Shown in pieces: positions 4,288-19,844 of a stretch of 64,000 nt of DNA. Source of the DNA: Seleniivibrio woodruffii (lineage in GTDB: Bacteria; Chrysiogenota; Deferribacteres; Deferribacterales; Geovibrionaceae); NCBI RefSeq assembly GCF_004339245.1, contig NZ_SMGG01000003.1, positions 585,106 to 649,105 on the forward strand, written 5' to 3'. The notes under the pieces are model-generated. The model had not been told where the DNA came from and searched no databases. It worked only from the letters and a program-made list of their open reading frames with translations. Every line of letters begins with the position of its first letter. The first letter of the stretch is position 1. Both the position numbers and the translations under genes were made by a program.

Positions 4288-6477
4288 TTGCTGAAGAAAC
4301 TGGCACGCCCTTTGCATGTTCTGCTCGGTAAAATATACGACCCGAACGGGGCCGAGATGACATTCAAAGTAAAAAATTCGTTAATAACCATGACCCTGCT
4401 TCTTGTGGGGATATTAAGCCTTATCGGTGTGACATATCACAGCACAAGGGTGATAATCGACCGCACAGTCATGAACCATCAGCAGAATATCGCCGCACAG
4501 GCCGCCGCAACCACCAGCATGTGGGTTCAGCAGCAGATAAAGATCCTGAGCTCTGCGGCAAAATCTCTGGGATCAGAACCGGAAGACAACATGGTTCAGA
4601 CCATGAATATTCTGAAAATGACCATGGAGGCCGGGGATTTCAGCGATGTTTACATAGGTCTTGCCGACGGCAAGATGATTGACGGTGCGGAGTGGATACC
4701 CCCGCAGGGATACGACCCAAGAATCCGCCCTTGGTACATGCGTGCGCAGAAGACGGAAACCATAGGATTTTCATATCCTTACATAGATATGACCACCAAA
4801 CAGATGGTCATTGCATTATCTATGCCCATCACATCCGGACGTCAAATCAAAGGGGTTCTCAGCGCAGATACCAACCTCGATATGCTTATGAAAAACGTTG
4901 TCAACGCAAGGGCAGCCAGAGGCGGCTATACTTTCGTTGTGGGGCAGGGCGGAACCATAATCATGCACCCTGACAAAAATCTGCTTATGCGGCAGAAGGT
5001 TCAGGATGCCGATCCCAGCCTTGAGAATATTCTTAAAGTTATGAAGGGCAAGGAGTCCGGCTCTTTTTCATACGCTCAGAACGGTAAGGAATACATCCTT
5101 GCTTATCAGAAGGTTGAGAACGTTGACTGGTATCTTTGCACAACTATGACCCGTGCCAACGCCTATGAACTTTCCGGTCGTGCGTCGATGCTTCTGGCTA
5201 CAGAATCGGTGCTCAAGGTGCTGGGGATTTTGGTGGTTGTTACCATGTTCGGAGTGGGTGGGAGCGCACTGGTTCTCTATCTGTATAACCGCAGGTTTGT
5301 CAATGCTATGCAGAAACAGCAGGTGCAGATCTCCGGCATGAACGAAGACCTTAAGTGGAACATTACCCGCAGGAAAGAGCTGGAAACCCACTATCAGACC
5401 CTTTTCAACGTGGCCAACGATGCCATAATGGTTCTGAAAAGCATGATATTCGTTGACTGCAATGAGAAGGCAAACGAGCTTTTCGGACTGAGCCACTACG
5501 GAATTCTGGGCAACAATATGCTCGATCTGTCCCCCGCACATCAGCCGGACGGGGTGCGCAGTCATGAAAAAGCACTGAAAATAATATCTGAGGCCGAAAA
5601 GGGCGAACAGCAGTTTTTTAACTGGAACTTCCTGCGCAGCGACGGAACTGAGTTTCCCGCCGAAGTGAGCCTAAAAAAGCTCAGACTGAACAACGAACAG
5701 CTTATTCTTTTGAGCATCAGAGATATATCAAAGCGTGTCAACGCCGAGCAGCAGCTGAGACAGGCGCAGAAGATGGCCGCAATGGGCGAGATGGTGGGAG
5801 CCATAGCCCACCAGTGGCGTCAGCCTCTGAACATCCTTTCAACCTATATCGCAAGTGTTCAGTCGGCTTACTATAACAATATGGTGAGCAGGGAGTTTGT
5901 TGACAAGGTGGTGAGCGGAGCCGACAGCCAGATTCAGTTCATGTCGAAGACTATTGACGACTTCCGGCACTTCTTCAAACCATCAAAAAGCAAGGAGCCT
6001 TTCGACTCCATCGAGGGTATTGAGAGTGCGGCACGCCTTATTTCGCCTAACTATAAAGATTGCGGCATAGAACTGACCATAATCCGCCCGCAGGAGAAAT
6101 ATCCTCTGGTTGTCAGCGGCTGCCGGAGCGAGTTCGTGCATGTGGTGCTGAACCTGCTGGCAAACGCACGGGATGCCATCATGGAGAAAAATCAGGAAAG
6201 CGACGAACCGAAGGACGTTTATATAGTTATTGAACATGACGACAGCAATGTTATTATAAAGGTGAAGGATACCGGATGTAAGATTGCGGCGCACATCATG
6301 CCGAAGATATTCAATCCGTATTTTTCAACAAAGACCTATGCATCAGGCACGGGAATCGGTCTGTATATGTCCCGAATGATAATCGAGAGCGAAATGCAGG
6401 GAACACTGACAGCCCAGAACTATGAACACGGAGCCGTGTTCACAATAACTCTGCCGAAGATAGCAAAAGAGGACTGA
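4288..6477 (+). CDS. Sensor histidine kinase with dCACHE (amino-acid type) and PAS domains
   Basis: The 729-residue membrane kinase has TM1 at about 32-51 and a periplasmic dCACHE domain at about 52-300. TM2 follows at about 308-335, then a cytoplasmic PAS domain (~365-490), a HisKA dimerisation helix with H508 in AHQWRQPLN, and an HATPase domain with an N box (LNLLANARDAI), FNPYFSTK and GTGIGLYM. In the dCACHE domain Y142, R147, W149, Y150, Y165 and D194 have the exact spacing of the amino-acid-binding motif of PctA-type sensors. It therefore probably senses an amino acid or GABA. The start is TTG after AAGGGTGG. The partner regulator follows three bases later. Confidence 0.9.
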   Translation: MLKKLARPLHVLLGKIYDPNGAEMTFKVKNSLITMTLLLVGILSLIGVTYHSTRVIIDRTVMNHQQNIAAQAAATTSMWVQQQIKILSSAAKSLGSEPEDNMVQTMNILKMTMEAGDFSDVYIGLADGKMIDGAEWIPPQGYDPRIRPWYMRAQKTETIGFSYPYIDMTTKQMVIALSMPITSGRQIKGVLSADTNLDMLMKNVVNARAARGGYTFVVGQGGTIIMHPDKNLLMRQKVQDADPSLENILKVMKGKESGSFSYAQNGKEYILAYQKVENVDWYLCTTMTRANAYELSGRASMLLATESVLKVLGILVVVTMFGVGGSALVLYLYNRRFVNAMQKQQVQISGMNEDLKWNITRRKELETHYQTLFNVANDAIMVLKSMIFVDCNEKANELFGLSHYGILGNNMLDLSPAHQPDGVRSHEKALKIISEAEKGEQQFFNWNFLRSDGTEFPAEVSLKKLRLNNEQLILLSIRDISKRVNAEQQLRQAQKMAAMGEMVGAIAHQWRQPLNILSTYIASVQSAYYNNMVSREFVDKVVSGADSQIQFMSKTIDDFRHFFKPSKSKEPFDSIEGIESAARLISPNYKDCGIELTIIRPQEKYPLVVSGCRSEFVHVVLNLLANARDAIMEKNQESDEPKDVYIVIEHDDSNVIIKVKDTGCKIAAHIMPKIFNPYFSTKTYASGTGIGLYMSRMIIESEMQGTLTAQNYEHGAVFTITLPKIAKED

Positions 6478-6480
6478 AAA

Positions 6481-7890
6481 TTGTTTGATCTGACAGGTCT
6501 TAATCCATCGATACTTATTGTTGACGACGAGAAAGAGGAACTGCACGCATATAAATTTCTCCTTGAGTCAATGGGACTTAAGGACATAACCATATTGGAC
6601 GACAGCAGGAATGTTCTGGAAACCCTTGAACAGCTTGACGCTCCCGTTGTTTTTCTCGATCTGAACATGCCGAAAAAGAGCGGAAAAGAGGTTCTGAAAG
6701 AGATAAAGGCTCAGATGCCCCATGTTCCGGTGATAATCTGCACTGCAAACAGCGACCTTGAAACAGCAGTGCAATGCCTTAAACTGGGCGCACACGACTA
6801 TCTGGTAAAACCCATCAGCATGAGCACGTTCGGCTCGGCACTCAGAAACGCCAGCGAGATAGGCTCGCTCCGCTCGGAGCTTCTGTCGCTAAAGCGGATA
6901 GGAGTGGAGACCGGACTTAAGAATCCTGAAAATTTCAAGAGCATGGTGACTCAGAACAGTACCATGGAAGGGATCTTTCATTACATAGAATCCATAGCCA
7001 AAAGCGGCCAGCCTGTGCTGGTTCTGGGAGAAACGGGAGCGGGAAAGGAACTTGTTGCCAAAGCCATCCATGATTCCAGCGGGCTTAAAGGCGAGTTTGT
7101 GGCTGTGGATGTTTCGGGTCTTGACGACTCACTCTTCTCCGACACCCTTTTCGGTCACGCCAAGGGCGCATACACAGGGGCGGATAGCAACCGTCCGGGG
7201 CTTGTGGAGCGTGCGGCGGGCGGAACCATCTTTCTGGATGAGATAGGCGATCTGAACGAAACGTCTCAGGTAAAACTGCTCCGGCTGATGCAGGAGCGGA
7301 TATATTATCCGCTGGGTTCGGACAAACCGAAACAGTGTCAGGCGAGGATAGTGGCCGCCACCAATAAAGACCTGAACGCAATGACGATCACGGGGGGAAG
7401 CTTCCGCCGTGACCTTTACTACAGACTCAGCACCCATCTTATAAAACTGCCCTCCCTGCGTGAGCGCAAAGAGGATATTCCGCTTCTGACTGAATATCTT
7501 GCGGAGGAAGCCGCCATTGGGATGGGCAAGCCCGTTCCGGTGTTCAGCCCGCAGGCGATGCGTATGCTGATGGCACATGATTTCCCCGGAAACATCAGAG
7601 AGCTTAAAACCTATATCTATGATGCGGTTGCAAGATGCAGTGGTGACATCATGGAGGACAGGTTCATTGCGGAGCGTCTGGGTGAGCTGACCCGTGAGCA
7701 GACGGTTCAGATAATCTCCGGCGAGCCTCTGGAGCAGATATTCGGTCATTTCCCCACTCTGGAGGAGATAACCCAGTATGCAGTTACATCGGCTATGAAA
7801 TCCGCCAACAATAACCAGTCGCAGGCGGCAAAACTTCTGGGTATCTCAAAACAGGCTCTTAACAAGCGTATCCAGAAGCGGGGAAGATAG
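6481..7890 (+). CDS. Sigma-54-dependent response regulator (NtrC family)
   Basis: The 469-residue protein has a receiver domain with acidic pocket D15-D16 and phospho-acceptor D60 in VVFLDLNMP. It has an AAA+ domain with Walker A GETGAGKE (from residue ~183), the sigma-54 contact loop GAYTGA at 229-234, and Walker B GTIFLDEIG. A C-terminal Fis-type helix-turn-helix (NNNQSQAAKLLGISKQAL) completes it. The loop has Tyr instead of the usual Phe in GAFTGA. It is the evident partner of the preceding kinase, with TTG as start and a GAGGA ribosome site. Two -24/-12 promoters with a shared palindrome lie just downstream and are its most likely targets. Confidence 0.93.
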   Translation: MFDLTGLNPSILIVDDEKEELHAYKFLLESMGLKDITILDDSRNVLETLEQLDAPVVFLDLNMPKKSGKEVLKEIKAQMPHVPVIICTANSDLETAVQCLKLGAHDYLVKPISMSTFGSALRNASEIGSLRSELLSLKRIGVETGLKNPENFKSMVTQNSTMEGIFHYIESIAKSGQPVLVLGETGAGKELVAKAIHDSSGLKGEFVAVDVSGLDDSLFSDTLFGHAKGAYTGADSNRPGLVERAAGGTIFLDEIGDLNETSQVKLLRLMQERIYYPLGSDKPKQCQARIVAATNKDLNAMTITGGSFRRDLYYRLSTHLIKLPSLRERKEDIPLLTEYLAEEAAIGMGKPVPVFSPQAMRMLMAHDFPGNIRELKTYIYDAVARCSGDIMEDRFIAERLGELTREQTVQIISGEPLEQIFGHFPTLEEITQYAVTSAMKSANNNQSQAAKLLGISKQALNKRIQKRGR

Positions 7891-7903
7891 AATTCTTTAC
7901 GCA

Positions 7904-7963
7904 GAGATTCTTCACTCCGTTCAGAATGACAGGGAAGTCACTCTGAGCGATGCGAAGAGTCTC
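7904..7963. repeat. Intergenic palindromic repeat, CTGAGC/GAAGAGTCTC family
   Basis: Two oppositely oriented arms, GAGATTCTTC...TCAGAATGAC and GTCACTCTGAGC...GAAGAGTCTC, are separated by AGGGAA and can fold into one long hairpin. Related copies occur at 11178, 16101, 47027 and 62653. It lies directly after the response regulator gene and may also reduce readthrough. Confidence 0.75.
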
Positions 7964-7983
7964 TTTTGTGTGTCAATCAACGT

Positions 7984-8001
7984 GGTCAACAAAAGTTGAC
8001 C
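7984..8001. promoter_or_regulatory. Upstream activator palindrome GTCAAC-N4-GTTGAC
   Basis: This is an 18-bp perfect inverted repeat (GGTCAAC-AAAA-GTTGACC), centred about 58 bp upstream of the -24 element at 8051. Half sites GTCAAT (7972-7977) and GTCAAC (8005-8010) flank it. The same palindrome occurs before the aminotransferase promoter. Its place and symmetry fit an enhancer for the sigma-54 activator encoded just upstream. Confidence 0.75.
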
Positions 8002-8049: not shown

Positions 8050-8064
8050 TGGCACTGTTCTTGC
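8050..8064 (+). promoter_or_regulatory. Sigma-54 (-24/-12) promoter of the aldehyde dehydrogenase gene
   Basis: TGGCAC at 8050-8055 and TTGC at 8061-8064 match the sigma-54 consensus, with exactly ten bases between the invariant GG and GC. Transcription would start near 8075, leaving a short leader with a GAGGTG ribosome site before ATG 8100. Confidence 0.88.
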
Positions 8065-8099
8065 GTCCGCTAAGCCCATAAGATTTCACGAGGTGAGCG

Positions 8100-9524
8100 A
8101 TGAAGCAGTATAAAACCTTGATCGGAGGGGAATGGGTCGAGTCGGCCAAGACGCTGGAGGTGAAGAACAAATACAATAACGAAGTCTTCGCCGCAGTTCC
8201 CGTTGCCGATGAAAAAGAGACGCAGAGAGCCATAGACATTGCTGAAGAGGCTTTCAAAACCTTCAGAAAATGCCCTGCGCACAAGAGATCGGAAATACTT
8301 GAAAAAACATCCGACATTATCCTCAGAAGAAAAGAGGAGATTGCCGAGATCATATCAAAAGAAGCAGGAAAAGCATGGAAATTCTCCATGAACGAGGTCT
8401 ACCGCAGTGCGGAAACCTTCAAATTTGCCGCTGAAGAGGCAAAAAGAGTGCATGGTGAAACCATTCCTGTGGATGCCAGCGCATTCGGTGAAAACCGTGT
8501 GGGCTACTACATAAAAGAGCCTCTGGGCGTTATAGGAGCCATCACTCCTTTCAACTTCCCTCTGAACCTCGTTGCTCACAAGGTTGCACCCGCAATCGCA
8601 ACAGGTAACACTGTGGTTCTGAAACCCGCATCCAGCACGCCTTTGTCTTCAATCATCCTTGCGGAGATAATGGAAGAGGCAGGGCTTCCCGCAGGCGTTC
8701 TTAATGTTGTTATAGGCTCCGGCGGAACAGTGGGCGACACCATCGTGGCGAGCCCCAAATGCAAAAAGATCACTTTTACCGGTTCACCCGGCGTGGGCGA
8801 TCAGATAATCAAAAAAGCTGGCATAAAAAAGGTCACTCTTGAACTTGGCAACAACTCCGCAACCATCATCGAAGCCGATGCGGATGTTGAAAAAGCCGCT
8901 GCAAGATGCGTTGTAAGCGCATTCTCAAACTCAGGTCAGGTATGTATCTCACTCCAGAGGATATATGTGAACAGAGCTATAGCCGATGAGTTCTCAAAGG
9001 TATTCGTTGAGAAGACAAAGGCTCTCGTTGTAGGCGACCCTATGGATCCCAAATGCGACGTTGGCCCCATGATCGACGGAAAAGAGCTTAAGCGTATCGA
9101 TGAATGGGTTCAGGAGGCTGTGGCTCAGGGCGCAGTTCTTGCCGCAGGCGGAAAAGTCGTCGGCAACGTTTTCGAACCCACTGTGCTCACGAACGTTACC
9201 GAAGACATGAAAGTTATGTGCATGGAGACGTTTGCTCCCGTTGTTTCAATCGTTGCTTACGATGATTTCAGCGAGGTTATCCAGCGTGTCAACCATTCCG
9301 ACTTCGGCCTTCAGGCTGGTGTGTACACTAAAGATATCAACAAGATACTCGAAGCGGTGGAAGACCTTGAAGTGGGCGGCGTAATGATAAACGACACAGC
9401 CACCTACAGAGTTGACCACCTTCCCTATGGCGGAAACAAACTTTCAGGTCTCGGCCGTGAGGGCGTTAAGTTCGCAATGGAAGATATGCTAAGCATCAAA
9501 ATGGTGATGATAAACAGAAACTGA
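8100..9524 (+). CDS. NAD(P)-dependent aldehyde dehydrogenase (semialdehyde type)
   Basis: The 474-residue protein is a standard-length ALDH superfamily enzyme. It has the cofactor-binding PFNFPLN and GNTVVLKPASSTP segments, catalytic C282 in SGQVCIS and general base E248 in LELGNNS, spaced 34 residues apart as in the family. It oxidises an aldehyde to a carboxylate. Next to a GABA-type aminotransferase the natural substrate may be succinate semialdehyde, but malonate semialdehyde, glutarate semialdehyde or sulfoacetaldehyde are also possible, and its sequence style resembles lactaldehyde-type ALDHs. It has its own sigma-54 promoter and is followed by a strong terminator, so it is a single-gene unit. 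Confidence 0.88.
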   Translation: MKQYKTLIGGEWVESAKTLEVKNKYNNEVFAAVPVADEKETQRAIDIAEEAFKTFRKCPAHKRSEILEKTSDIILRRKEEIAEIISKEAGKAWKFSMNEVYRSAETFKFAAEEAKRVHGETIPVDASAFGENRVGYYIKEPLGVIGAITPFNFPLNLVAHKVAPAIATGNTVVLKPASSTPLSSIILAEIMEEAGLPAGVLNVVIGSGGTVGDTIVASPKCKKITFTGSPGVGDQIIKKAGIKKVTLELGNNSATIIEADADVEKAAARCVVSAFSNSGQVCISLQRIYVNRAIADEFSKVFVEKTKALVVGDPMDPKCDVGPMIDGKELKRIDEWVQEAVAQGAVLAAGGKVVGNVFEPTVLTNVTEDMKVMCMETFAPVVSIVAYDDFSEVIQRVNHSDFGLQAGVYTKDINKILEAVEDLEVGGVMINDTATYRVDHLPYGGNKLSGLGREGVKFAMEDMLSIKMVMINRN

Positions 9525-9681: not shown

Positions 9682-9719
9682 GTCAATAATTGTTGACGCT
9701 CTCTTCAATAAAAATTGAC
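9682..9719. promoter_or_regulatory. Two tandem upstream activator palindromes
   Basis: GTCAAT-AATT-GTTGAC (9682-9697) and TTCAAT-AAAA-ATTGAC (9704-9719) have the same half sites and four-base spacer as the palindrome at 7984. Their centres are 22 bp apart, about two helical turns, which suits cooperative binding of an NtrC-type activator dimer pair. Confidence 0.75.
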
Positions 9720-9769: not shown

Positions 9770-9784
9770 TGGCACAGCTGTTGC
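9770..9784 (+). promoter_or_regulatory. Sigma-54 (-24/-12) promoter of the aminotransferase gene
   Basis: TGGCAC (9770-9775) and TTGC (9781-9784) fit the -24/-12 consensus with correct GG-N10-GC spacing. The predicted start is near 9795, 30 bases before ATG 9825, which has a CCGGAGG ribosome site. Confidence 0.88.
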
Positions 9785-9824
9785 TTTAAAGTGGTAAATA
9801 ACATCAAATCCCCGGAGGATAGCT

Positions 9825-11171
9825 ATGCTGAAAGGCGATGAACTGGCGCAGATATCTGCACCTCAAAGTGAAAAGACTAAAGAACTGCTTCTGAAAAAGG
9901 AAGCGTATGTTGCATCGGGAATTTCCGCATCGGTGCCGATCTTCATCAAACAGGCCAAGGGTGCTGTCATTGAAGACATCGACGGCAACCGCTACATAGA
10001 TTTTTATGCAGGGATCGGTGTCACCACAGCGGGGCACTGCCCGGAACCCGTTGTTGACGCCATAAAGGAGCAGGCTGAAAATCTGCTCCACTCATGTTTC
10101 ATGGTTTCCATGTACGATTCATACGTTGAGCTTTCCAAAAAGCTTACCGAAATAGCTCCCGGCAGCTTCGACAAGAAAGCGATGCTGGTTAACAGCGGCG
10201 CAGAGGCTGTTGAGAACGCAGTGAAAATAGCCAGAGCCTACACAGGCAGACAGGGCATCGTGTGCTTCGAATCAGGTTTCCACGGCCGTACTCTGCTGAC
10301 AATGTCTCTCACGAGCAAGGTTAAACCCTACAAATACGGTTTCGGCCCCTACGCTCCCGAAATATACAAAGTTCCCTTCCCCAACCTCTACAGAGGCCAG
10401 CTCCACGTCGGCAAAGAGGACGCTGTCAAAGCTTATCTTGACTATTTCGAAAGATTTTTCGCCGCAGAGGTCGATCCCTCTCACATAGCGGCCATCATCA
10501 TTGAACCTGTTCAGGGCGAGGGCGGCTTCAACGTTACTCCCAAAGAATACATGAAAGGCCTCAGAGAGCTTTGCGACAAACACGGCATCCTGCTTATTGC
10601 CGACGAAGTGCAGACTGGTTTCTGCCGTACGGGCAGGATGTTTGCAATGGAGCACTACGATGTGTCCGCTGACCTGATCACAATGGCGAAGTCAATCGCA
10701 TCGGGTATGCCCCTTTCCGCAGTCGTCGGCCGCAAAGAGGTTATGGATTCTGTGGGCGCAGGACGTATCGGAGGAACCTACGGCGGTAACCCCGTTGCAT
10801 GCAGGGCTGCACTGGCCACCATCAAATACATGGAAGATAATAAGCTGGCTGACAAATCCGCCGATCTCGGCGAAAAGATCGTAGCAAGAGTCGGAAAACT
10901 TCAGGCCGACTTCCCTGTTATCGGCGACATCCGCAATCTGGGCAGCATGATAGGCATCGAGTTCATCAAAGACACAGCAACAAAGGAACCCGACAAATAC
11001 AGTGTAACCGCAATCATCGAAGAGTGCCGCAAAGAGGGTCTGCTTCTTATCGGAGCAGGCATATTCGGCAACGTTATCCGTATGCTCCCTCCTGTGGTGC
11101 TGACGGATGCACAGTTTGAGCAGGCTATGGGCATTTTCGAGAGCGCAGTGCGCAAGGTCCTCAGCAAGTAA
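9825..11171 (+). CDS. gabT: 4-aminobutyrate-type (class III) aminotransferase
   Basis: The 448-residue PLP enzyme is closest in motif detail to GABA aminotransferase: MLVNSGAEAVENAVKIAR, a GFHGRT loop, LLIADEVQTGFCRTGRMFA and the Schiff-base K289 in MAKSIASGMP. It should move the amino group of an omega-amino acid to 2-oxoglutarate or pyruvate, giving a semialdehyde that the neighbouring dehydrogenase could oxidise. Ornithine, beta-alanine, 5-aminovalerate or taurine are other possible donors for this family. It has its own sigma-54 promoter. The Liv importer starts 134 bp downstream with no obvious separate promoter, so co-transcription is plausible. Confidence 0.85.
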   Translation: MLKGDELAQISAPQSEKTKELLLKKEAYVASGISASVPIFIKQAKGAVIEDIDGNRYIDFYAGIGVTTAGHCPEPVVDAIKEQAENLLHSCFMVSMYDSYVELSKKLTEIAPGSFDKKAMLVNSGAEAVENAVKIARAYTGRQGIVCFESGFHGRTLLTMSLTSKVKPYKYGFGPYAPEIYKVPFPNLYRGQLHVGKEDAVKAYLDYFERFFAAEVDPSHIAAIIIEPVQGEGGFNVTPKEYMKGLRELCDKHGILLIADEVQTGFCRTGRMFAMEHYDVSADLITMAKSIASGMPLSAVVGRKEVMDSVGAGRIGGTYGGNPVACRAALATIKYMEDNKLADKSADLGEKIVARVGKLQADFPVIGDIRNLGSMIGIEFIKDTATKEPDKYSVTAIIEECRKEGLLLIGAGIFGNVIRMLPPVVLTDAQFEQAMGIFESAVRKVLSK

Positions 11172-11305: not shown

Positions 11306-12544
11306 ATGAATCTGAAGAAATTCATAGTTCCTGCCATAGTTCTGGCAATGGGAACAGCATCTTTTTCCGCTTACGCTGCAGAAAAAGTTGTAAAAATCGG
11401 TAACATACTTCCCCTGTCCGGTCCCTCTGCCTCTGTGGGCATTCAGGGCAAACAGGCAAGAGAAATGGCTGTTGACGAGATCAACAAAGCCGGCGGTATC
11501 AAGGCTCTGGGCGGCGCAAAGCTGAAGCTTCTTTTTGCTGACAGCAAAGGCGACCCCACAACAGGTGTTACAGAGACAGAACGTTTCATCAACACAGAGA
11601 AAGTAAGCATCCTTACCGGTGCTTGGAACTCATCCGTAACATATCCCGCAACTCAGGTTGCAGAGAGATACGGCATTCCTTTCGTTGTTGAAGTTTCCGT
11701 TCGCGACACCATAACAGAGAGAGGATTCAAAAACGTATTCCGTATCGCTGCGAAAGATTCATGGTGGACACGTGACCAGTTCCGTTTCCTCGCCGACATG
11801 CAGAAAGAGTTTAAAACCCCCATCAAAAAAGTTGCTTTCGTTTATGAAAACGGCGACTGGGGAACAGGTTTTGCAGAAAAATGGCGCGGACTTGCAAAAG
11901 CTGCCGGCTATCAGGTAGTTCTTGACGAACCCTATCCCAGCACAGCAAGCGACCTGACTCCCGTTGTGCTGAAACTTAAAAGATCCAACCCCGACGTGGT
12001 CTTCATGACCTCCAATGCGGCGGATGCTATCCTCCTTACAAAAACAATGACAGACCTTAAGGTCAACGTTAAAGCCATCGTAACATCAGGCGGCGGCCAC
12101 GCAGATCCTTCATATCTTGAAGCTGTCGGCAAAAACGCTGAATACCTGTTCGATATCGTTGAGTGGGAAACAGACCTTAACAGACCCGGCCTTAAAGAGA
12201 CCAACGACAAGTTCAAAAAACTCTACGGCTACAACCTGACAGGTGAAGCGGTTGATGCTTATGCAGCTATGTATCTTATCAAGGATGTTCTTGAAAGAGC
12301 AAAATCAACAGACCCCAACGCTCTGCGTGCGGCTCTGGCTGCAACAAACCTGAAAGGCGGCAAAACAGGTCTGCTGGCTTATGACAGCATCCAGTTCGAC
12401 CAGACGGGACAGAACAAGAACGCAAGCCTTGTTGTTGTTCAGGTCAGAACCGGCAAAGACGGCAAAATGGACAGAATCTCCGTTTGGCCCAAGAACGTCA
12501 GAAGAGCCGGATACAAAGTGGTATTTCCCCAGCCTGGTAAATAA
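11306..12544 (+). CDS. livK: Branched-chain/small amino-acid ABC transporter substrate-binding protein
   Basis: This 412-residue periplasmic binding protein has a typical signal peptide ending SAYAAEK. The mature part starts VVKIGNILPLSGPSASVGIQGKQ..., the Peripla_BP_6 (LivJ/LivK) pattern, and later has GAWNSSVTYPATQVAERYGIP. It captures an amino acid or related compound and delivers it to the permease encoded next. A strong AAGGAGG precedes the ATG. The ligand is not evident; given the neighbouring aminotransferase and dehydrogenase it may be GABA or another non-branched amino acid. It is separated from livH by 215 bp with a repeat and a hairpin, which may keep the binding protein in excess. 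Confidence 0.9.
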   Translation: MNLKKFIVPAIVLAMGTASFSAYAAEKVVKIGNILPLSGPSASVGIQGKQAREMAVDEINKAGGIKALGGAKLKLLFADSKGDPTTGVTETERFINTEKVSILTGAWNSSVTYPATQVAERYGIPFVVEVSVRDTITERGFKNVFRIAAKDSWWTRDQFRFLADMQKEFKTPIKKVAFVYENGDWGTGFAEKWRGLAKAAGYQVVLDEPYPSTASDLTPVVLKLKRSNPDVVFMTSNAADAILLTKTMTDLKVNVKAIVTSGGGHADPSYLEAVGKNAEYLFDIVEWETDLNRPGLKETNDKFKKLYGYNLTGEAVDAYAAMYLIKDVLERAKSTDPNALRAALAATNLKGGKTGLLAYDSIQFDQTGQNKNASLVVVQVRTGKDGKMDRISVWPKNVRRAGYKVVFPQPGK

Positions 12545-12759: not shown

Positions 12760-13644
12760 ATGATCGGCTATATAGAATCCGTCATCAACGGCATACTCAT
12801 GGGCTCGATATACGGGCTCACTGCGGTGGGGCTTACCCTGATCTTCGGGGTGATGAAGGTGGTAAACTTTGCTCACGGCTCAATCCTCATGGTGGGGATG
12901 TTTGCTGCATACTGGTTTATTAAGCTGACAGGGTTCAACCCCTATCTGGCGCTTTTCGTTGTGGTTCCTATGCTCTATTTCTTCGGTTATTATATGCAGA
13001 AAATAGTCATCAAACCCATCTTTGAGGCTGAGAAGCATGTCAGAGAGCCTATCACTGTCATCATTGTAACAACGGGTATCTGGTATGTTCTGGATAACCT
13101 CGCACTGCTGGTTTTCGGTGCCGAGTTCCGTGTGGCTGAAACTTCCGTAACGGGAAAGATGGTTGAGATCGCAGAGATGTATTTCCCTCTGGCAAAGCTG
13201 ATCGGGCTGGGGCTGACACTGCTTCTGGGTGCATATCTCTACTGGTTCCTCAAACACTCCAGAATGGGCAAGGCGGTCAGAGCCACCAGTCTGGACAGAG
13301 AGGCGGCAACCCTTATGGGCATCAAGCAGAGCCGGATTTACAACGTGGTATTCGGAATGGGATGCGCCTGCTGCGGTGTTGCGGCATGTGTTCTTGTTCC
13401 CTTCTATTATGTTTACCCTACAGTCGGTGTGCCTTTTGACATCAAAGCGTTCGTTATCGTGGTTCTCGGGGGACTGGGAAGTATCCCCGGAGCGATTCTG
13501 GGCGGAATAATCATCGGAATCATCGAGACAGTGGGTGCGCAGTTCATGGCGGCCACCTGGACGGAAATGCTTATCTACGCATTCTTCCTCGTGGTTCTGT
13601 TTGTTAAACCATCGGGTCTTTTCGGCCTCAAACAGGACTATTAA
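12760..13644 (+). CDS. livH: Liv-type ABC transporter permease (LivH)
   Basis: The 294-residue integral membrane protein starts with the LivH-type segment INGILMGSIYGLTAVGLTLIFGVMKVVNFAHG and has about eight hydrophobic helices. The permease coupling region GKAVRATSLDREAATLMGI lies near residue 170, and LGGLGSIPGAILGG near residue 235. It forms half of the channel through the inner membrane with LivM. The ATG has a good GGGAG ribosome site. livM starts 12 bases after its stop. Confidence 0.93.
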   Translation: MIGYIESVINGILMGSIYGLTAVGLTLIFGVMKVVNFAHGSILMVGMFAAYWFIKLTGFNPYLALFVVVPMLYFFGYYMQKIVIKPIFEAEKHVREPITVIIVTTGIWYVLDNLALLVFGAEFRVAETSVTGKMVEIAEMYFPLAKLIGLGLTLLLGAYLYWFLKHSRMGKAVRATSLDREAATLMGIKQSRIYNVVFGMGCACCGVAACVLVPFYYVYPTVGVPFDIKAFVIVVLGGLGSIPGAILGGIIIGIIETVGAQFMAATWTEMLIYAFFLVVLFVKPSGLFGLKQDY

Positions 13645-13656
13645 GGGGGCTGACCA

Positions 13657-14670
13657 ATGAAATTTCTAAGCAACGTATCAACAACACATAAAGTTTTTGC
13701 GGCTCTTGTGCTCGCAGTGCTCTACGCTCTGCCGATATTCATCAAAAGCCCTGTTATGCTTCAGATATTCATCCTTATTTTCTTTTATGCGTATCTGACT
13801 TCTTCATGGAACTTTGTAGGCGGTTTCGCAGGGGTTCTGCCTCTGGGTCACTCTGCCTTTGTGGGTCTGGGAGCATACACTTCAACGCTTCTCTACCTGA
13901 CATACAACATCAGCCCGTGGATCGGTATGATAGCGGGCGGTATAGTGGCTGTGTTCTTCGGGCTTCTGATAGGTATTCCCACTCTGAAACTGCGGGGTGC
14001 GTATTTCGCACTGGCAACCATAGCCTTTGCCGAAGGTCTCAGGGTGCTTGTGGAAAACCTTGAAAAGATAGGCCCTTTCGAGATAAGAGGCCCCAAAGGT
14101 CTGCTTATCAACCTTGTGGGCAACTCTTTTGTGGATTTCCAGTTCCTCAGTAAGGTGCCTTACTACTATATAATCCTGACGATGCTTGTTCTGGTTCTGA
14201 TACTGACCTTCTTCATGATGCGCTCCAAAGTGGGCTACTATCTGGCGGCTGGCGGTGAAGAGCCGGAAGCGGCGGAAGCTCTGGGTATCAAAGTTTCAAA
14301 ATATAAGCTCATCGCAATGGCAATCAGCTGTTTCCTGACAGCTCTGGGCGGGACTTTCTACGCTCAGCTGGTGCTCTATTTCTATCCGAAATCCATCATG
14401 GGACTGGATATGTCATATGAAATAGCCTTTATAGCCCTTATCGGCGGCAGAAGCACAATTCTTGGCCCTGTGCTCGGAGCGTTTCTGCTTCGTCCCGTTG
14501 GCGAGCTTACCAGAATATATCTGGGCGACACACTGCCCGGTCTTCACCTTATCATCTTCGGTCTGGTGCTTATCATCGTAATGCGCTATCAGCCCCGTGG
14601 TCTTGTGGAGCCTGTTTCCAAGTGGCTCAAGGCTCTTTTCGACCGCATTGAGAACAGAGGGAGGGCATAA
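13657..14670 (+). CDS. livM: Liv-type ABC transporter permease (LivM)
   Basis: The 337-residue membrane protein has LivM hallmarks: NFVGGFAGVLPLGHSAFVGLGAYTS near residue 50, IGIPTLKLRGAYFALATIAFAE near residue 105, and the EAAF-like coupling helix GEEPEAAEALGIKVSKYKL near residue 205. It pairs with LivH as the translocation channel for an amino acid. The gene follows livH closely and ends two bases before the LivG start codon, so the operon is tightly packed. Confidence 0.93.
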   Translation: MKFLSNVSTTHKVFAALVLAVLYALPIFIKSPVMLQIFILIFFYAYLTSSWNFVGGFAGVLPLGHSAFVGLGAYTSTLLYLTYNISPWIGMIAGGIVAVFFGLLIGIPTLKLRGAYFALATIAFAEGLRVLVENLEKIGPFEIRGPKGLLINLVGNSFVDFQFLSKVPYYYIILTMLVLVLILTFFMMRSKVGYYLAAGGEEPEAAEALGIKVSKYKLIAMAISCFLTALGGTFYAQLVLYFYPKSIMGLDMSYEIAFIALIGGRSTILGPVLGAFLLRPVGELTRIYLGDTLPGLHLIIFGLVLIIVMRYQPRGLVEPVSKWLKALFDRIENRGRA

Positions 14671-14672
14671 GC

Positions 14673-15404
14673 ATGGCACTTTTGGAAGTTAAAAACGTAA
14701 CAAAACAGTTCGGCGGCCTGACAGCCGTGAACAGTGTGGACATGGAAGTGCACGAAGGCCAGATAGTCGGTATCATCGGCCCCAACGGTGCTGGAAAAAC
14801 CACCCTGTTCAGCTGTATTGCGGGTTCACACGTTCCCACAAAGGGCAGCATAAAATTCAACGGAACAGAAATAGCGGGCAAAAAGCCCTATGATATATGC
14901 AAACTGGGCGTAACCAGAACCTTTCAGGTGGTAAAACCCTTTGCAAACAAGACGGTGCTCTATAACACCACAGTGGGTGCATTTGCGAAGACCAACCTGC
15001 TGGACAAAGCCGAAGAGAAGGCTATGGAGGTTCTTAAGCTCATCGACCTTTATGACAAGAAGGATATTCCGGCGAAAAACCTTACCCTGCCCGAGCGCAA
15101 GAGGCTGGAACTGGCCAGAGCACTGGCCACGGAGCCAAAACTTCTGCTTCTTGACGAGGTTATGGCGGGTCTCCGCCCTTCGGAGGTTTCGGAGATGCTT
15201 CCCGTTATCCGCAAGATAAACTCCGTGGGCGTGTCGATCATCATTGTCGAGCACATCATGCAGGCCATTATGAACCTGTCTGAAAAGGTCTACGTTATCA
15301 ATTTCGGTAAAAAGATAGCCGAGGGCGACCCTCACAAGGTGGTTGCCGAGGAAGAGGTTATCAAAGCCTATCTGGGGGATGAATATGTCGCTAATAGCCA
15401 TTGA
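14673..15404 (+). CDS. livG: Liv-type ABC transporter ATPase (LivG)
   Basis: The 243-residue ATPase has Walker A GPNGAGKTT and Walker B LLLLDEVMAGL, with the LivG-type Val after DE. The signature segment reads LTLPERKRLELARALA in place of the classic LSGGQ, a substitution seen in part of the LivG family. It powers amino-acid uptake together with LivF. Its last 20 bases overlap the LivF start. Confidence 0.92.
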   Translation: MALLEVKNVTKQFGGLTAVNSVDMEVHEGQIVGIIGPNGAGKTTLFSCIAGSHVPTKGSIKFNGTEIAGKKPYDICKLGVTRTFQVVKPFANKTVLYNTTVGAFAKTNLLDKAEEKAMEVLKLIDLYDKKDIPAKNLTLPERKRLELARALATEPKLLLLDEVMAGLRPSEVSEMLPVIRKINSVGVSIIIVEHIMQAIMNLSEKVYVINFGKKIAEGDPHKVVAEEEVIKAYLGDEYVANSH

Positions 15405-16098
15405 GAATCTTAGTGCCGGATACGGCGAGATAGGCGTTCTTTTCGACGTCTCCATGCGTGTGGAGGCGGGCGAGGTGGTGAGTATCATCGGAGCAAACGG
15501 CGCAGGAAAATCAAGTCTGCTGAAAGCCATGTCCGGTCTTATCCGCCCCACAGCAGGAACAATAACCTTCAACGGCGAGAACATAACTCAGCTTCCCGCC
15601 GATGAGATAGTTGAGCGGGGACTTGTCCATGTGCCCGAAGGCAGAAGACTGTTCAGCCTTATGACGGTTTATGAGAACCTTGAGATGGGGGCATTCAGCA
15701 AACATGCTCAGAAGGATTTCAAAAAGAATCTGGAGGACGTGCATAAGCTTTTTCCCAGACTCGCAGAGCGTGGCAAACAGCTTGCGGGAACCCTTTCAGG
15801 CGGCGAACAGCAGATGGTTGCCATCGGCAGGGGCATAATGTCCAGCCCGAAGGTAATGATGTTCGACGAGCCTTCTCTTGGTCTGGCTCCGGTTCTTAAA
15901 AAGGATATCTTTGCTGCGGTGAAGAGAATCGCCGTTGAATACGGCACAACGATTGTTCTTGTTGAGCAGGACGTTATGAACTCGCTGGCAATCAGCGACA
16001 GGGCATACGTTATGGAGCAGGGGCAGATAGTTATCGAGGGAACGGCTCAGGAACTTTTGAAAGATCCCCACATCAAAGAAGCATATCTGGGCGTATAA
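15385..16098 (+). CDS. livF: Liv-type ABC transporter ATPase (LivF)
   Basis: The 237-residue ATPase has Walker A GANGAGKSS, signature LSGGEQQMVAIGR, and Walker B VMMFDEPSLGLAP followed by the switch region VLVEQDV. I chose ATG 15385 because it lies a proper distance after GGGGG (15375-15379) and gives the normal LivF length. An upstream ATG at 15379 sits directly on the purine run, and the longer frame from 15343 is inside livG. It completes a full LivKHMGF importer. Confidence 0.92.
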   Translation: MSLIAIENLSAGYGEIGVLFDVSMRVEAGEVVSIIGANGAGKSSLLKAMSGLIRPTAGTITFNGENITQLPADEIVERGLVHVPEGRRLFSLMTVYENLEMGAFSKHAQKDFKKNLEDVHKLFPRLAERGKQLAGTLSGGEQQMVAIGRGIMSSPKVMMFDEPSLGLAPVLKKDIFAAVKRIAVEYGTTIVLVEQDVMNSLAISDRAYVMEQGQIVIEGTAQELLKDPHIKEAYLGV

Positions 16099-16598: not shown

Positions 16599-16625
16599 GT
16601 AATACTTTTTGTGTTTTATTATTAC
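16599..16625. promoter_or_regulatory. Candidate NikR-type operator before the nickel importer
   Basis: GTAATAC (16599-16605) and TTATTAC (16619-16625) form an inverted repeat with six of seven positions paired and a 13-base spacer. This is the size and spacing of known NikR sites. It would overlap the -35 region of a promoter whose -10 may be TACTAT (16637-16642). The link to NikR is inference; no nikR gene is in the window. Confidence 0.45.
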
Positions 16626-16674
16626 TTATTCTGTGCTACTATCCGTCATTGATTTCAGAATAACGGAGGGTATT

Positions 16675-17427
16675 ATGAAAAAAATTCTCACACTAATGCT
16701 TGTGCTGACAGCGTTTTGCGCTCATGCACACTTTCAGGTTCTGATGCCGAACACAGATGCGGCCACACAGCAGAACAGAAACATCAAGTTCGATATGTTC
16801 TTCACACACCCCTTTGAGCAGGGTCCCATGATGGAGATGGTGAAGCCCAAGGCGGTTGATCTCTATCTGAACGGTAAAAAAGAGAATCTCATGGGCGGCA
16901 TAAAGCAGGTTAAAAGATCGGGGAAATCCGCATGGGAGTTCTCATATCAGATGAAAAAGCCCGGCGACCATATTTTTGTGGTGACACCTGACTACTACTT
17001 CGAACCTGCGGAATCAGTGTTCATTCAGCATATAACAAAAACGGTTGTGAACGGTTTCGGCATGGAAGAGGGCTGGGACACCCCGGTCGGACTTAAGGCC
17101 GAGATAGTTCCGCTGACTCGCCCCTACGGGCTTTACACCGGCAACGTTTTCACCGGAAAGGTGCTTTACAAGGGCAAGGCGGTTCCCTATGCTGAAGTTG
17201 AGGTTGAGTATTACAACGCAGGCTCAAAGGTTAAAGCTCCCACAGGCACTCATATCACTCAGGTGGTGAAGGCCGACGGAAACGGTGTGTTCACCTATGC
17301 CATGCCTTTCACCGGATGGTGGGGTTTTGCGGCACTCATCGAGGATGATGTGAAGCTGAAAAAAGACGGAAAACAATACCCTGTTGAGCTTGGTGCTCTT
17401 ATCTGGGTAAAAACATACGGTAAGTAA
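16675..17427 (+). CDS. nikK: NikK-like periplasmic component of a nickel ECF importer (DUF4198)
   Basis: The 250-residue protein has a signal peptide (LMLVLTAFCAHAH) and the DUF4198 pattern HFQVLMPNTD near the mature N-terminus, with FFTHPFEQGPMM soon after. DUF4198 proteins linked to CbiM-type permeases are called NikK and are thought to help capture Ni(II) in the periplasm. The mature chain starts with His and carries several more. ATG 16675 follows GGAGGG; an earlier in-frame start at 16609 would run through the promoter region. The permease gene follows three bases after its stop. Confidence 0.82.
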   Translation: MKKILTLMLVLTAFCAHAHFQVLMPNTDAATQQNRNIKFDMFFTHPFEQGPMMEMVKPKAVDLYLNGKKENLMGGIKQVKRSGKSAWEFSYQMKKPGDHIFVVTPDYYFEPAESVFIQHITKTVVNGFGMEEGWDTPVGLKAEIVPLTRPYGLYTGNVFTGKVLYKGKAVPYAEVEVEYYNAGSKVKAPTGTHITQVVKADGNGVFTYAMPFTGWWGFAALIEDDVKLKKDGKQYPVELGALIWVKTYGK

Positions 17428-17430
17428 TCT

Positions 17431-18039
17431 ATGCATATCTCCGAAGGCGTACTGTCCGTTCCTGTGCTTGTTGCCACGGGAACGGCAGGAGCCGTTTTAA
17501 CAGTATACGGATTTTACAGGATGAAGGCGGACATGATGGCCAGAACGGCTCTTATGTCCAGCCTGTTTTTTGTTGGCTCTTTCATCCACATTCCCGTGGG
17601 GCCTGCCAGCGTCCACCTTGTGCTGAACGGACTGGTGGGGGCGGTTCTGGGGTTCTGCGCCTTTCCTGCGATACTCATCGCTCTGGTGCTTCAGGCGCTT
17701 CTTTTTCAGTTCGGAGGATTCACCACGCTGGGAACAAACGTTCTGGTGATGGCTCTCCCCGCACTGGCGGGATATTTTCTGTTTGCGCTCGGTTCGAAAA
17801 GCTCCGGCAGAATGAGATGGCTGCTTTACTATCTTACGGGTGCAGTACCCGTGCTTTTGTCTGCGGCTCTGCTCTCCGCCGTTCTTGCATTCAGCGGCAG
17901 CAGGCTGTATGATACAGCAAAAGCTATTTTCCTGATGAACATCCCCGTGGTTGTGACAGAGGGGCTGGTTTCGATGTATTTATTTAATTTTTTAAACAAG
18001 GTCTATCCCGACTTTTTGAGTAAAAACCATGAAAACTAA
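17431..18039 (+). CDS. nikM: Nickel ECF importer S component (NikM/CbiM)
   Basis: The 202-residue membrane protein begins MHISEG, the CbiM/NikM N-terminus whose free amino group and His2 bind the metal. FIHIPVGPASVHLVLNGLVGAVLG is the family's conserved second-helix region, and LFQFGGFTTLGTNVLVMALPA follows. It gives substrate specificity to the importer. The length is near the NikM norm. The genes around it (NikK and NikL types rather than CbiN) point to nickel more than cobalt. Confidence 0.9.
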   Translation: MHISEGVLSVPVLVATGTAGAVLTVYGFYRMKADMMARTALMSSLFFVGSFIHIPVGPASVHLVLNGLVGAVLGFCAFPAILIALVLQALLFQFGGFTTLGTNVLVMALPALAGYFLFALGSKSSGRMRWLLYYLTGAVPVLLSAALLSAVLAFSGSRLYDTAKAIFLMNIPVVVTEGLVSMYLFNFLNKVYPDFLSKNHEN

Positions 18040-18544
18040 AATTCTTTTGGCTGCGATGTTATTGATTGGGCTGACGTCTAATGCGAGTGCCCACAAGCTG
18101 AACATCCTTGGCTTTGCGGAGAACGACACCCTTTCCATAAACGCATATTTCGCCGACGGCTCGCCCTGTCAGGAGTGCGCTTTTCAGGTCATAGGCTCTG
18201 ACGGCAAAGTATTTGCCGAGGGCAGGCTGGACAAAAAGGGTGAGTTCTTTCAGGCGGGAAAAACACCTGCCGAAATGACCATCATCGTTGATGCCGGAGC
18301 CGGACACAGGGGCGAAGAGAAGATAACCGCCGCTGAGACCTCCGAAGTGAAAGCGGAGGACGAACCCGCCGCACCTGCTGACAACACACAGCTCAGGCAG
18401 ATGATCCGTGAGGAGCTTTCGAAGCAGACTGCGGAGCTTAAGGCTGAGATGGACAAGGGAAAGAGCAGACTTGATAAGATAATCGCAGGCATAGGCTATA
18501 TTCTGGGAATATTCGGAATAGCAGTGCTCGTAAGGAAGAGATGA
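18029..18544 (+). CDS. nikL: NikL-like accessory protein of the nickel importer
   Basis: The 171-residue protein has a signal peptide (MLLIGLTSNASAHKLN) and a small carboxypeptidase-regulatory-like beta domain. A helical acidic linker follows (~100-145), then one C-terminal membrane helix ending VLVRKR. This layout matches NikL, the accessory subunit that replaces CbiN in NikKMLQO systems. The mature protein again starts with Ala-His. It overlaps nikM by 11 bases and nikQ by four. Confidence 0.75.
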   Translation: MKTKILLAAMLLIGLTSNASAHKLNILGFAENDTLSINAYFADGSPCQECAFQVIGSDGKVFAEGRLDKKGEFFQAGKTPAEMTIIVDAGAGHRGEEKITAAETSEVKAEDEPAAPADNTQLRQMIREELSKQTAELKAEMDKGKSRLDKIIAGIGYILGIFGIAVLVRKR

Positions 18545-19197
18545 GATTTTCCCCTGCGGCAGGCATATTGTGCGCCGTCATATATTCTTTCGTGATCGCC
18601 TTTAAACAGAGCATAACTCCCTTCGATGCCGTTTTTGCGGCGGGGATCATGGCTCTGCGGTGGAACTGTCTGCCGAAATACGCCCTCCGCATAGCGAAGC
18701 TGAATCTTATGATAATCTTCATCAGCGCAACGGTTTACATATTCGGGCAGGATTCTGCGCACGCAATTCTGATATTCATCAGGTACAACCTGATAGTCTG
18801 CGTCACCGCCGCCATGTTCTGCGGAATGAACGCAACTGATTTCTACTACGGTTTTTATACGCTGAAACTTCCTCATAAATTCACGGTTCTGCTGTTTTTT
18901 GCGGTGAAATACATCGAAATAATCGGAAACGAATACGAAAAGATGCGGACTTCACTCAGAATACGCAACTTCAAGCCCCGAACCGACAGATTCACCTACC
19001 GCACCCTCGCCTATCTTCTGGGTATGCTTCTGGTGCGCAGTATGGACAGGGCGAATGCCCTGACCGAGGCGATGAAGATGCGGGGATTTGCGGGCAGGCT
19101 CTATCCGTTCAACTTCCGCCCGTTCTTTCCGGCGGACGTTGCGGCGGCGGCGCTGCTGGTGTTTCAGATTTTTCTTACATACGGAGTGACCCGATGA
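18541..19197 (+). CDS. nikQ: ECF transporter transmembrane T component (NikQ/CbiQ)
   Basis: The 218-residue membrane protein has the EcfT coupling motifs: RTSLRIRNFKPR near residue 140 and ALTEAMKMRGFAGRLY near residue 180 (the A-R-G type signatures that contact the ATPase). It links nickel-specific NikM to the NikO ATPase. The ATG overlaps the nikL stop, and its stop overlaps nikO as ATGA. Confidence 0.88.
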   Translation: MRFSPAAGILCAVIYSFVIAFKQSITPFDAVFAAGIMALRWNCLPKYALRIAKLNLMIIFISATVYIFGQDSAHAILIFIRYNLIVCVTAAMFCGMNATDFYYGFYTLKLPHKFTVLLFFAVKYIEIIGNEYEKMRTSLRIRNFKPRTDRFTYRTLAYLLGMLLVRSMDRANALTEAMKMRGFAGRLYPFNFRPFFPADVAAAALLVFQIFLTYGVTR

Positions 19198-19844
19198 GCT
19201 GTTCCATAACCCTGAGAGATTTGAGTCTTGCCAGAAACGGCGAAGTGCTTTTTGAAAACGTGACGCTGAGCGTCGGACATAAGGACAAGATAGCAGTCAT
19301 GGGGCACAACGGAGCGGGTAAAACGACGCTGTTAAAGTCCATCGTGGGACTTTGCAGGGTCAGGTCGGGCACAGTTGAGATATTTCACCATAAGCTTGTC
19401 ACCGAAGAGGATTTCCGCAAGGCCAGAGGACATATAGGCTTTGTTTTTCAGGACAGCGACGACCAGATAATCGCCCCTACCGTGATAGAGGAGGTGGCTT
19501 TCGGTCTGCTGAACAGCAGGATGAAGCCCGCAGAGGCAGAGGCTCAGGCGGAGGCAATGCTGAACGAGCTTGGAATCTCCCATCTGCGTGACAGGATAAC
19601 CCTGCATCTGTCCGGCGGCGAAAAGAAACTGGTGACACTGGCTTCCGTGCTGGTGATGAAGCCCGATATCCTCCTTCTGGACGAGCCTTCGGCGGGGCTG
19701 GACGAAAAATCGGTCAATCAGCTGGCATCCATTCTTGCATCCATCGACAAGAGCATGCTTATAGTCTCCCATGACTTTGAGTTTGTGAACAAAATGGGCG
19801 CACAGATAATGTATCTTACCCGTGAGGGGCTTGTCAGAGGCTGA
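19194..19844 (+). CDS. nikO: ECF transporter ATPase (NikO/CbiO)
   Basis: The 216-residue ATPase has Walker A GHNGAGKTTLL, a Q-loop GFVFQDSDDQIIAPTV typical of CbiO, signature LSGGEKKLVTLA and Walker B ILLLDEPSAGLD. It energises nickel uptake and ends the nikKMLQO operon. It is somewhat shorter than cobalt-type CbiO proteins (~270 residues) because the C-terminal extension is absent. Confidence 0.9.
   Translation: MSCSITLRDLSLARNGEVLFENVTLSVGHKDKIAVMGHNGAGKTTLLKSIVGLCRVRSGTVEIFHHKLVTEEDFRKARGHIGFVFQDSDDQIIAPTVIEEVAFGLLNSRMKPAEAEAQAEAMLNELGISHLRDRITLHLSGGEKKLVTLASVLVMKPDILLLDEPSAGLDEKSVNQLASILASIDKSMLIVSHDFEFVNKMGAQIMYLTREGLVRG

Follow-up and report, generated by a model that had tools for sequence, protein, structure and literature searches.

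The signals of most bacterial sensor kinases are unknown. The dCache_1AA subfamily of sensor domains, described as a 'universal amino acid sensor', counts more than 10,000 sequences, and the validated members named in the two papers that describe it are mostly chemoreceptors (PMC10104139, PMC11237719); the kinase presented here is a predicted member. PctA, PctB and PctC of Pseudomonas aeruginosa and CtaA of P. fluorescens are chemoreceptors too; they have the dCache_1 fold and the full amino-acid motif, with identical spacing, in common with our protein, whose output is instead a histidine kinase. In the PctC crystal, Ser101 contacts GABA, and Asp149 is one of the two acidic residues at the amino group of the ligand (PMC6974571). 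Regarding two-component systems, the sensor domain of AgtS bound no ligand despite the neighbouring GABA/5-aminovalerate transporter, which calls for caution when a signal is deduced from neighbouring genes (PMC11113362).

We analysed a stretch of 64,000 nucleotides from Seleniivibrio woodruffii (hereafter the window), in which the parts of the gene cluster described below, from the kinase to the LivF-like ATPase, lie on the + strand. It carries what we consider a probable two-component system, where a dCache_1AA kinase senses a periplasmic amino acid and its NtrC-type partner activates an aldehyde dehydrogenase gene and the gabT-liv genes. The open reading frame of the sensor histidine kinase spans 4288-6477 and, according to Pfam, encodes a first transmembrane helix, a periplasmic dCache_1 domain (residues ~54-304), a second transmembrane helix, and PAS, HisKA and HATPase_c domains. 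TTG 4288 is only the mechanical start of the frame. Since a sigma-54 -24/-12 element (TGGCACGCCCTTTGCA, 4301-4316, exact match) sits within this mechanical 5' end, the true start is probably ATG 4357, which in the alignment of orthologues lies directly 5' of a conserved (M)T-FKVKNSL / (M)I-IKLRNSL segment followed by the first transmembrane helix. The element, which we assign as the promoter of the kinase-regulator pair, is equivalently placed in four relatives (L009, L010, L043 and L044). Residues are numbered here from 4288; with the start at 4357, all numbers decrease by 23 (Y142 becomes Y119).

A preliminary description of this DNA had assigned the sensor to the dCACHE family, and the Pfam profile search confirmed it: dCache_1 (PF02743) matched residues 57-285 with 100.3 bits against a gathering score of 45 (E 1.6e-28). 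The nearest solved structures, by sequence (phmmer) and by fold (Foldseek), were all amino-acid receptors. Sequence matches to PctA, PctB, PctC and CtaA had E values of 1e-24 to 1e-20, with identities of only 22-26%. An AlphaFold2 model of the sensor domain, built from an alignment of 24 relatives (A1), reached a mean pLDDT of 85 and a pTM of 0.81, and showed one long helix (2-43) followed by two beta-modules, as expected for dCache_1. Foldseek gave TM-scores of 0.7-0.84 to PctA, CtaA and Mlp24, and E values of about 1e-19 to 1e-15 for PctA, PctB, PctC and CtaA. The best 50 PDB fold matches were dCache-type receptors, led by PctA (with Met, Trp or Ile), CtaA (with Ile, Leu or Ala), Mlp24 and Mlp37, and they included PctC with GABA; none of these 50 was recognised as an amine (AM)- or purine-binding structure.

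The ligand motif, dCache_1AA residues Y142, R147, W149, Y150, Y165, D167 and D194, is encoded at 4711-4869. Translation of 4288-6474 reproduced the six residues and the spacing given in the preliminary description (Y-x4-R-x-W-Y, then Tyr at +15 and Asp at +44), with codons at 4711 (Y142), 4726 (R147), 4732 (W149), 4735 (Y150), 4780 (Y165) and 4867-4869 (D194). PctA has the same spacing in Y121/R126/W128/Y129/Y144/D173, and phmmer aligned the two stretches without gaps, GYDPRIRPWY...PYIDMTTKQMVIALSMP...GVLSAD of the kinase facing GYDPRSRPWY...PYVDAATQELIITAATP...GVVGGD of PctA. Besides, the domain agrees at every position with the published dCache_1AA pattern, [YFWL]x4[RK]xW[YFW]x13-17[YFW]x27-34D (PMC11237719). 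All six residues had been described as matching those that hold the ligand in PctA-type sensors. The match to the PctA class stood; the contact role did not extend to Y150, whose counterpart PctA Y129 is structural and makes no ligand contact (PMC10104139). A seventh ligand residue absent from that description, D167 (PctA D146, PctC D149), is present and invariant among orthologues.

In a six-frame translation of the window (58,134 residues), the loose and the strict forms of the motif each gave a single match, that of the kinase itself, and of 200,000 shuffled versions of the sensor domain, 81 showed the loose pattern. Among the eight best dCache_1 loci of the genome, three have the loose pattern and five lack it, so the motif is not automatic for the dCache_1 fold, and the signature is genuine. 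By secondary structure of the model and by alignment with PctA, the motif occupies domain positions 89-141, in the membrane-distal module. A position outside the membrane-distal pocket, which the preliminary description had named as evidence against its claim, is thus not what the model suggests. Together, the motif, the dCache_1 match and the amino-acid receptors found as structural neighbours support the proposed amino-acid ligand class. Another dCache protein encoded in this genome (L003, G000:C3:441137-441667) likewise has the amino-acid motif, as YDPRVRPWY...PYVD...D, and has relatives in sister species.

To describe the side-chain pocket we compared six orthologues, 42-83% identical to the sensor domain of the window. 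At residues 117-150, 23 of 34 positions were invariant; the proximal module had 23 invariant positions out of 93, and the long helix 12 out of 62. Alignments A1 and A2 delimit an invariant pocket segment, FSDVYIG..DG.(M/I)IDGA.W.PP (residues 118-139, 4639-4704), in which D120, Y122, I131, D132, G133, A134, W136, P138 and P139 never vary; neither do the motif residues Y142, R147, W149, Y165, D167 and D194. D120, D132, G133, A134 and W136 differ from PctA, PctB and PctC, with the IDGAxW stretch and D120 distinguishing the kinase; D120 aligns with F99 of PctA and S101 of PctC. Judged from these alignments, the pocket is one of a single fixed specificity, unlike those of PctA, PctB and PctC, and could accommodate GABA or another omega-amino acid, or else an amino acid whose side chain is polar or basic. 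Because the side-chain pocket is unlike those of the three receptors, the motif indicates the class of the ligand only, and their specificities are not transferable. Nor can the motif separate an alpha-amino acid from GABA, since PctC holds GABA with the same residues (PMC6974571).

Downstream of the kinase, 6481-7890 encodes an NtrC-family response regulator with receiver, sigma-54 AAA+ and Fis-type HTH domains (Pfam). Its AtoC/NtrC-like NCBIfam matches fell below cut-off; the architecture is that of the NtrC family (receiver, AAA+ and Fis HTH, with -24/-12 targets and upstream operators), with the GAFTGA loop reading GAYTGA. Profile matches identify 8100-9524 as an NAD(P)-dependent aldehyde dehydrogenase, SSADH-like; we dropped a firm SSADH name for it, with a TIGR01780 score of 414.9 against the subfamily cut-off of 646.35. 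The next gene (9825-11171) encodes a 4-aminobutyrate--2-oxoglutarate transaminase (GabT) that scored above the TIGR00700 equivalog cut-off (572.8 bits vs 506.65). It is followed by a Liv-type periplasmic amino-acid-binding protein (11306-12544, Pfam) and, from Pfam and NCBIfam matches, by Liv-type LivH-like (12760-13644) and LivM-like (13657-14670) permeases and LivG-like (14673-15404) and LivF-like (15343-16098) ATPases. The mechanical start of the LivF-like frame overlaps LivG, and the real one is probably some 40 bp further downstream. The PDB relatives of the binding protein include 3ip5 (Atu2422, the Agrobacterium GABA/Ala/Pro binder); 8wch and 4n0q score higher. After the transporter, 16609-19844 holds genes of the cobalt/nickel uptake type (DUF4198, CbiM and CbiQ).

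Two further sigma-54 elements precede the putative target genes. TGGCACTGTTCTTGCG (8050-8065) lies before the dehydrogenase gene and has equivalents in relatives, and TGGCACAGCTGTTGCT (9770-9785, exact match), conserved in relatives, is the candidate gabT-liv promoter. Weak sigma-54-like matches in the window were not above chance (22 found vs 34 expected); the argument rests on the near-perfect sites, their position and their conservation, and not on the total count. Upstream of both promoters we found a predicted operator, the palindrome GTCAA-N6-TTGAC. An exact palindrome (GTCAACAAAAGTTGAC, 7985-8000) lies 65 bp upstream of the dehydrogenase element, while gabT has a pair: an exact copy 88 bp upstream of its element (GTCAATAATTGTTGAC, 9682-9697) and a second copy with one mismatch 66 bp upstream (TTCAATAAAAATTGAC, 9704-9719). 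These offsets (65; 88 and 66) are repeated within a base in L009 and L010, the nearest named relatives. Each lineage has an operator 65-120 bp upstream of the dehydrogenase promoter, of the gabT promoter or of both: G012 has an exact one 91 bp upstream of its gabT sigma-54 element, and G018 and G016 have one- and two-mismatch variants at 78-120 bp. The gabT operator pair is also found at L081, the second gabT locus of G022.

The 2.9 Mb genome contains four exact operators, of which the two besides 7985 and 9682 are within coding sequence; perfect operators are not enriched as such (4 vs 2 for a reversed-pattern control). The predicted operator is likely the binding site of the 6481-7890 regulator, and the layout is what one would expect if an NtrC-type activator governed a small regulon close to its own gene. 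No convincing operator was found upstream of the kinase sigma-54 element in the window or in any relative. Autoregulation of the kinase through the same operator was consequently dropped, and because the kinase promoter has no operator, the kinase-regulator pair may answer to a different activator or be expressed constitutively at the sigma-54 level. Near the operators, at about 7885-7970 and upstream of gabT in L009, L010 and L043, there is a short repeat-like GCGAAGCAGTCTC-type sequence, variable among relatives; these intergenic repeats are possibly REP/MITE-like elements.

Sensor orthologues were detected in 6 of the 51 Deferribacterota genomes. When all GTDB contigs were scanned for the sensor domain by nucleotide pattern, the two Seleniivibrio orthologues were the only matches, and a plasmid protein search gave, among the matches listed, chemoreceptor-level relatives only, with less than 32% identity. 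The order kinase, regulator, dehydrogenase, gabT, binding protein and livHM is kept in G022, G023 and G018, and in G016 the cluster is divided between two contig ends. In G012, from another family, kinase, regulator, gabT, binding protein and livHM keep their order without the dehydrogenase, and an aldehyde:ferredoxin oxidoreductase (L045:3822-5591) lies between gabT and the binding-protein gene. The dehydrogenase has apparently been swapped there for an unrelated aldehyde-oxidising enzyme, which is consistent with a semialdehyde intermediate.

A close GabT (E < 1e-130 to the window copy) is encoded in eight of the 51 genomes: all six with the kinase and only 2 of the 45 others (hypergeometric 1.6e-6, computed by hand and ignoring relatedness between genomes). 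G020 and G021, of the same genus, have neither the kinase nor a close GabT. Two second gabT loci were also observed. L081 (G022:C7) repeats the dehydrogenase-gabT-liv arrangement with the same operator, and L082 (G018:C1:915000-930000) has other neighbours and a GabT 77% identical to that of the window, against 70% for the kinase-linked copy of G018. The tie between the sensor and a degradative pathway, put forward before from the window, gains support from the synteny in two families, the co-occurrence of kinase and transaminase, the conserved sigma-54 promoters and the shared operators.

The domain, the motif, the synteny and the promoter and operator motifs with their conservation are read from the sequences themselves. 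In the mechanism that we infer for ligand binding, signal direction and operator occupancy, Arg147, Tyr142 and Trp149 would hold the carboxylate of the ligand, Tyr165, Asp167 and Asp194 would hold its amino group, and residues 118-139 would set the specificity. Binding in the membrane-distal module would change the activity of the kinase and lead to phosphorylation of the partner NtrC-type regulator, which, on tandem GTCAA-N6-TTGAC operators located 65-120 bp upstream of the sigma-54 promoters, would turn on the dehydrogenase and gabT-liv genes. The cell would then import and degrade the sensed compound or a close relative, so that the kinase probably activates the pathway in response to extracellular substrate.

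As for the ligand, the most likely candidate is GABA or an omega-amino acid like it (5-aminovalerate, beta-alanine), to which we give slightly less than an even chance; GABA or a homologue is favoured because the linked transaminase is of the GABA type and PctC shows that the motif can hold GABA. The main alternative, a close one, is also quite conceivable, if short of probable: that the kinase senses a proteinogenic L-alpha-amino acid as a general supply signal, for example one whose basic or polar side chain lies on D120/D132, and that the transaminase-transporter operon serves several amino acids and not GABA. The verified dCache_1AA domains in PMC11237719 all bound L-amino acids, in PctB, Gln and Arg are held by side-chain hydrogen bonds that involve 109-116 (PMC6974571), the acidic D120 and D132 could pair with a side-chain amino group, and the binding protein comes from the broad Leu/Ile/Val family. 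Yet the metabolic gene in tight linkage encodes an equivalog-level GABA transaminase, the replacement by an aldehyde:ferredoxin oxidoreductase in G012 likewise suggests a semialdehyde product, and D120 takes the position of the GABA-contacting Ser101 of PctC.

The other explanations seem much less probable to us. It is quite unlikely that the dCache domain binds no small molecule directly and either responds to the Liv-type binding protein in its ligand-loaded state or, having lost binding, persists as a structural relic. There is precedent for binding-protein-activated kinases, and no ligand was found for AgtS (PMC11113362); but six orthologues keep every ligand-contacting residue unchanged although their proximal module has drifted, and a relic or a docking surface would not retain its inner pocket in this way. 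It appears very improbable that the domain merely resembles the amino-acid class and senses amines (dCache_1AM), purines or some other non-amino-acid ligand. Although dCache_1AM domains have the equivalents of W128, Y144 and D173 in common with the amino-acid motif (PMC10104139), the positions separating the two classes, R147 and Y142, are both present and invariant, and the best 50 fold matches contained no AM- or purine-binding structure. We rejected dCache_1AM membership, which needs loss of the carboxylate Arg and the first aromatic, both retained here. Similarly, we see very little chance that the kinase-regulator pair has other targets and stands beside the gab/liv genes by accident: the kinase's own sigma-54 promoter, without an operator copy, fits that idea, but the gene order is kept across two families, kinase and GabT co-occur in six genomes, and conserved operators precede the target promoters.

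The proposed two-component system can be compared with known ones. Like those of the AtoSC/NtrBC type, it combines a PAS-HisKA-HATPase kinase, a receiver-AAA+-Fis regulator and -24/-12 promoters with upstream operators, but it scores far below the equivalog cut-offs and has a different sensor domain, operator and targets. The binding protein (11306-12544) belongs to the same family as Atu2422 (3ip5), though this is not its nearest relative; Atu2422 gives a precedent for a Liv-type transporter that carries GABA. AgtSR-AgtABCD, for GABA/5-aminovalerate uptake in P. aeruginosa, is likewise a two-component system beside a GABA-type ABC transporter and follows the same physiological logic; it differs in the SBP_bac_3 sensor domain of AgtS, for which no ligand was found, in the transporter family and in having no gabT in the cluster as described (PMC11113362). 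In the literature searched, we found no GABA-sensing dCache histidine kinase. As a tentative proposal, the kinase could be a dCache_1 kinase dedicated to GABA or an omega-amino acid, with a D-x-Y ... IDGAxW pocket unlike that of PctC, and could stand at the head of a self-contained sigma-54 regulon of Deferribacterota for sensing, import and degradation. Both a ligand class and a target regulon are indicated by the motif, the conserved pocket, the gene order and the regulatory sites, promoters as well as operators. Should GABA or 5-aminovalerate be the ligand, the kinase would sense a GABA-type compound directly, whereas AgtS, the candidate studied best, gave no ligand, and the pocket of the kinase would offer a second solution to compare with that of PctC.
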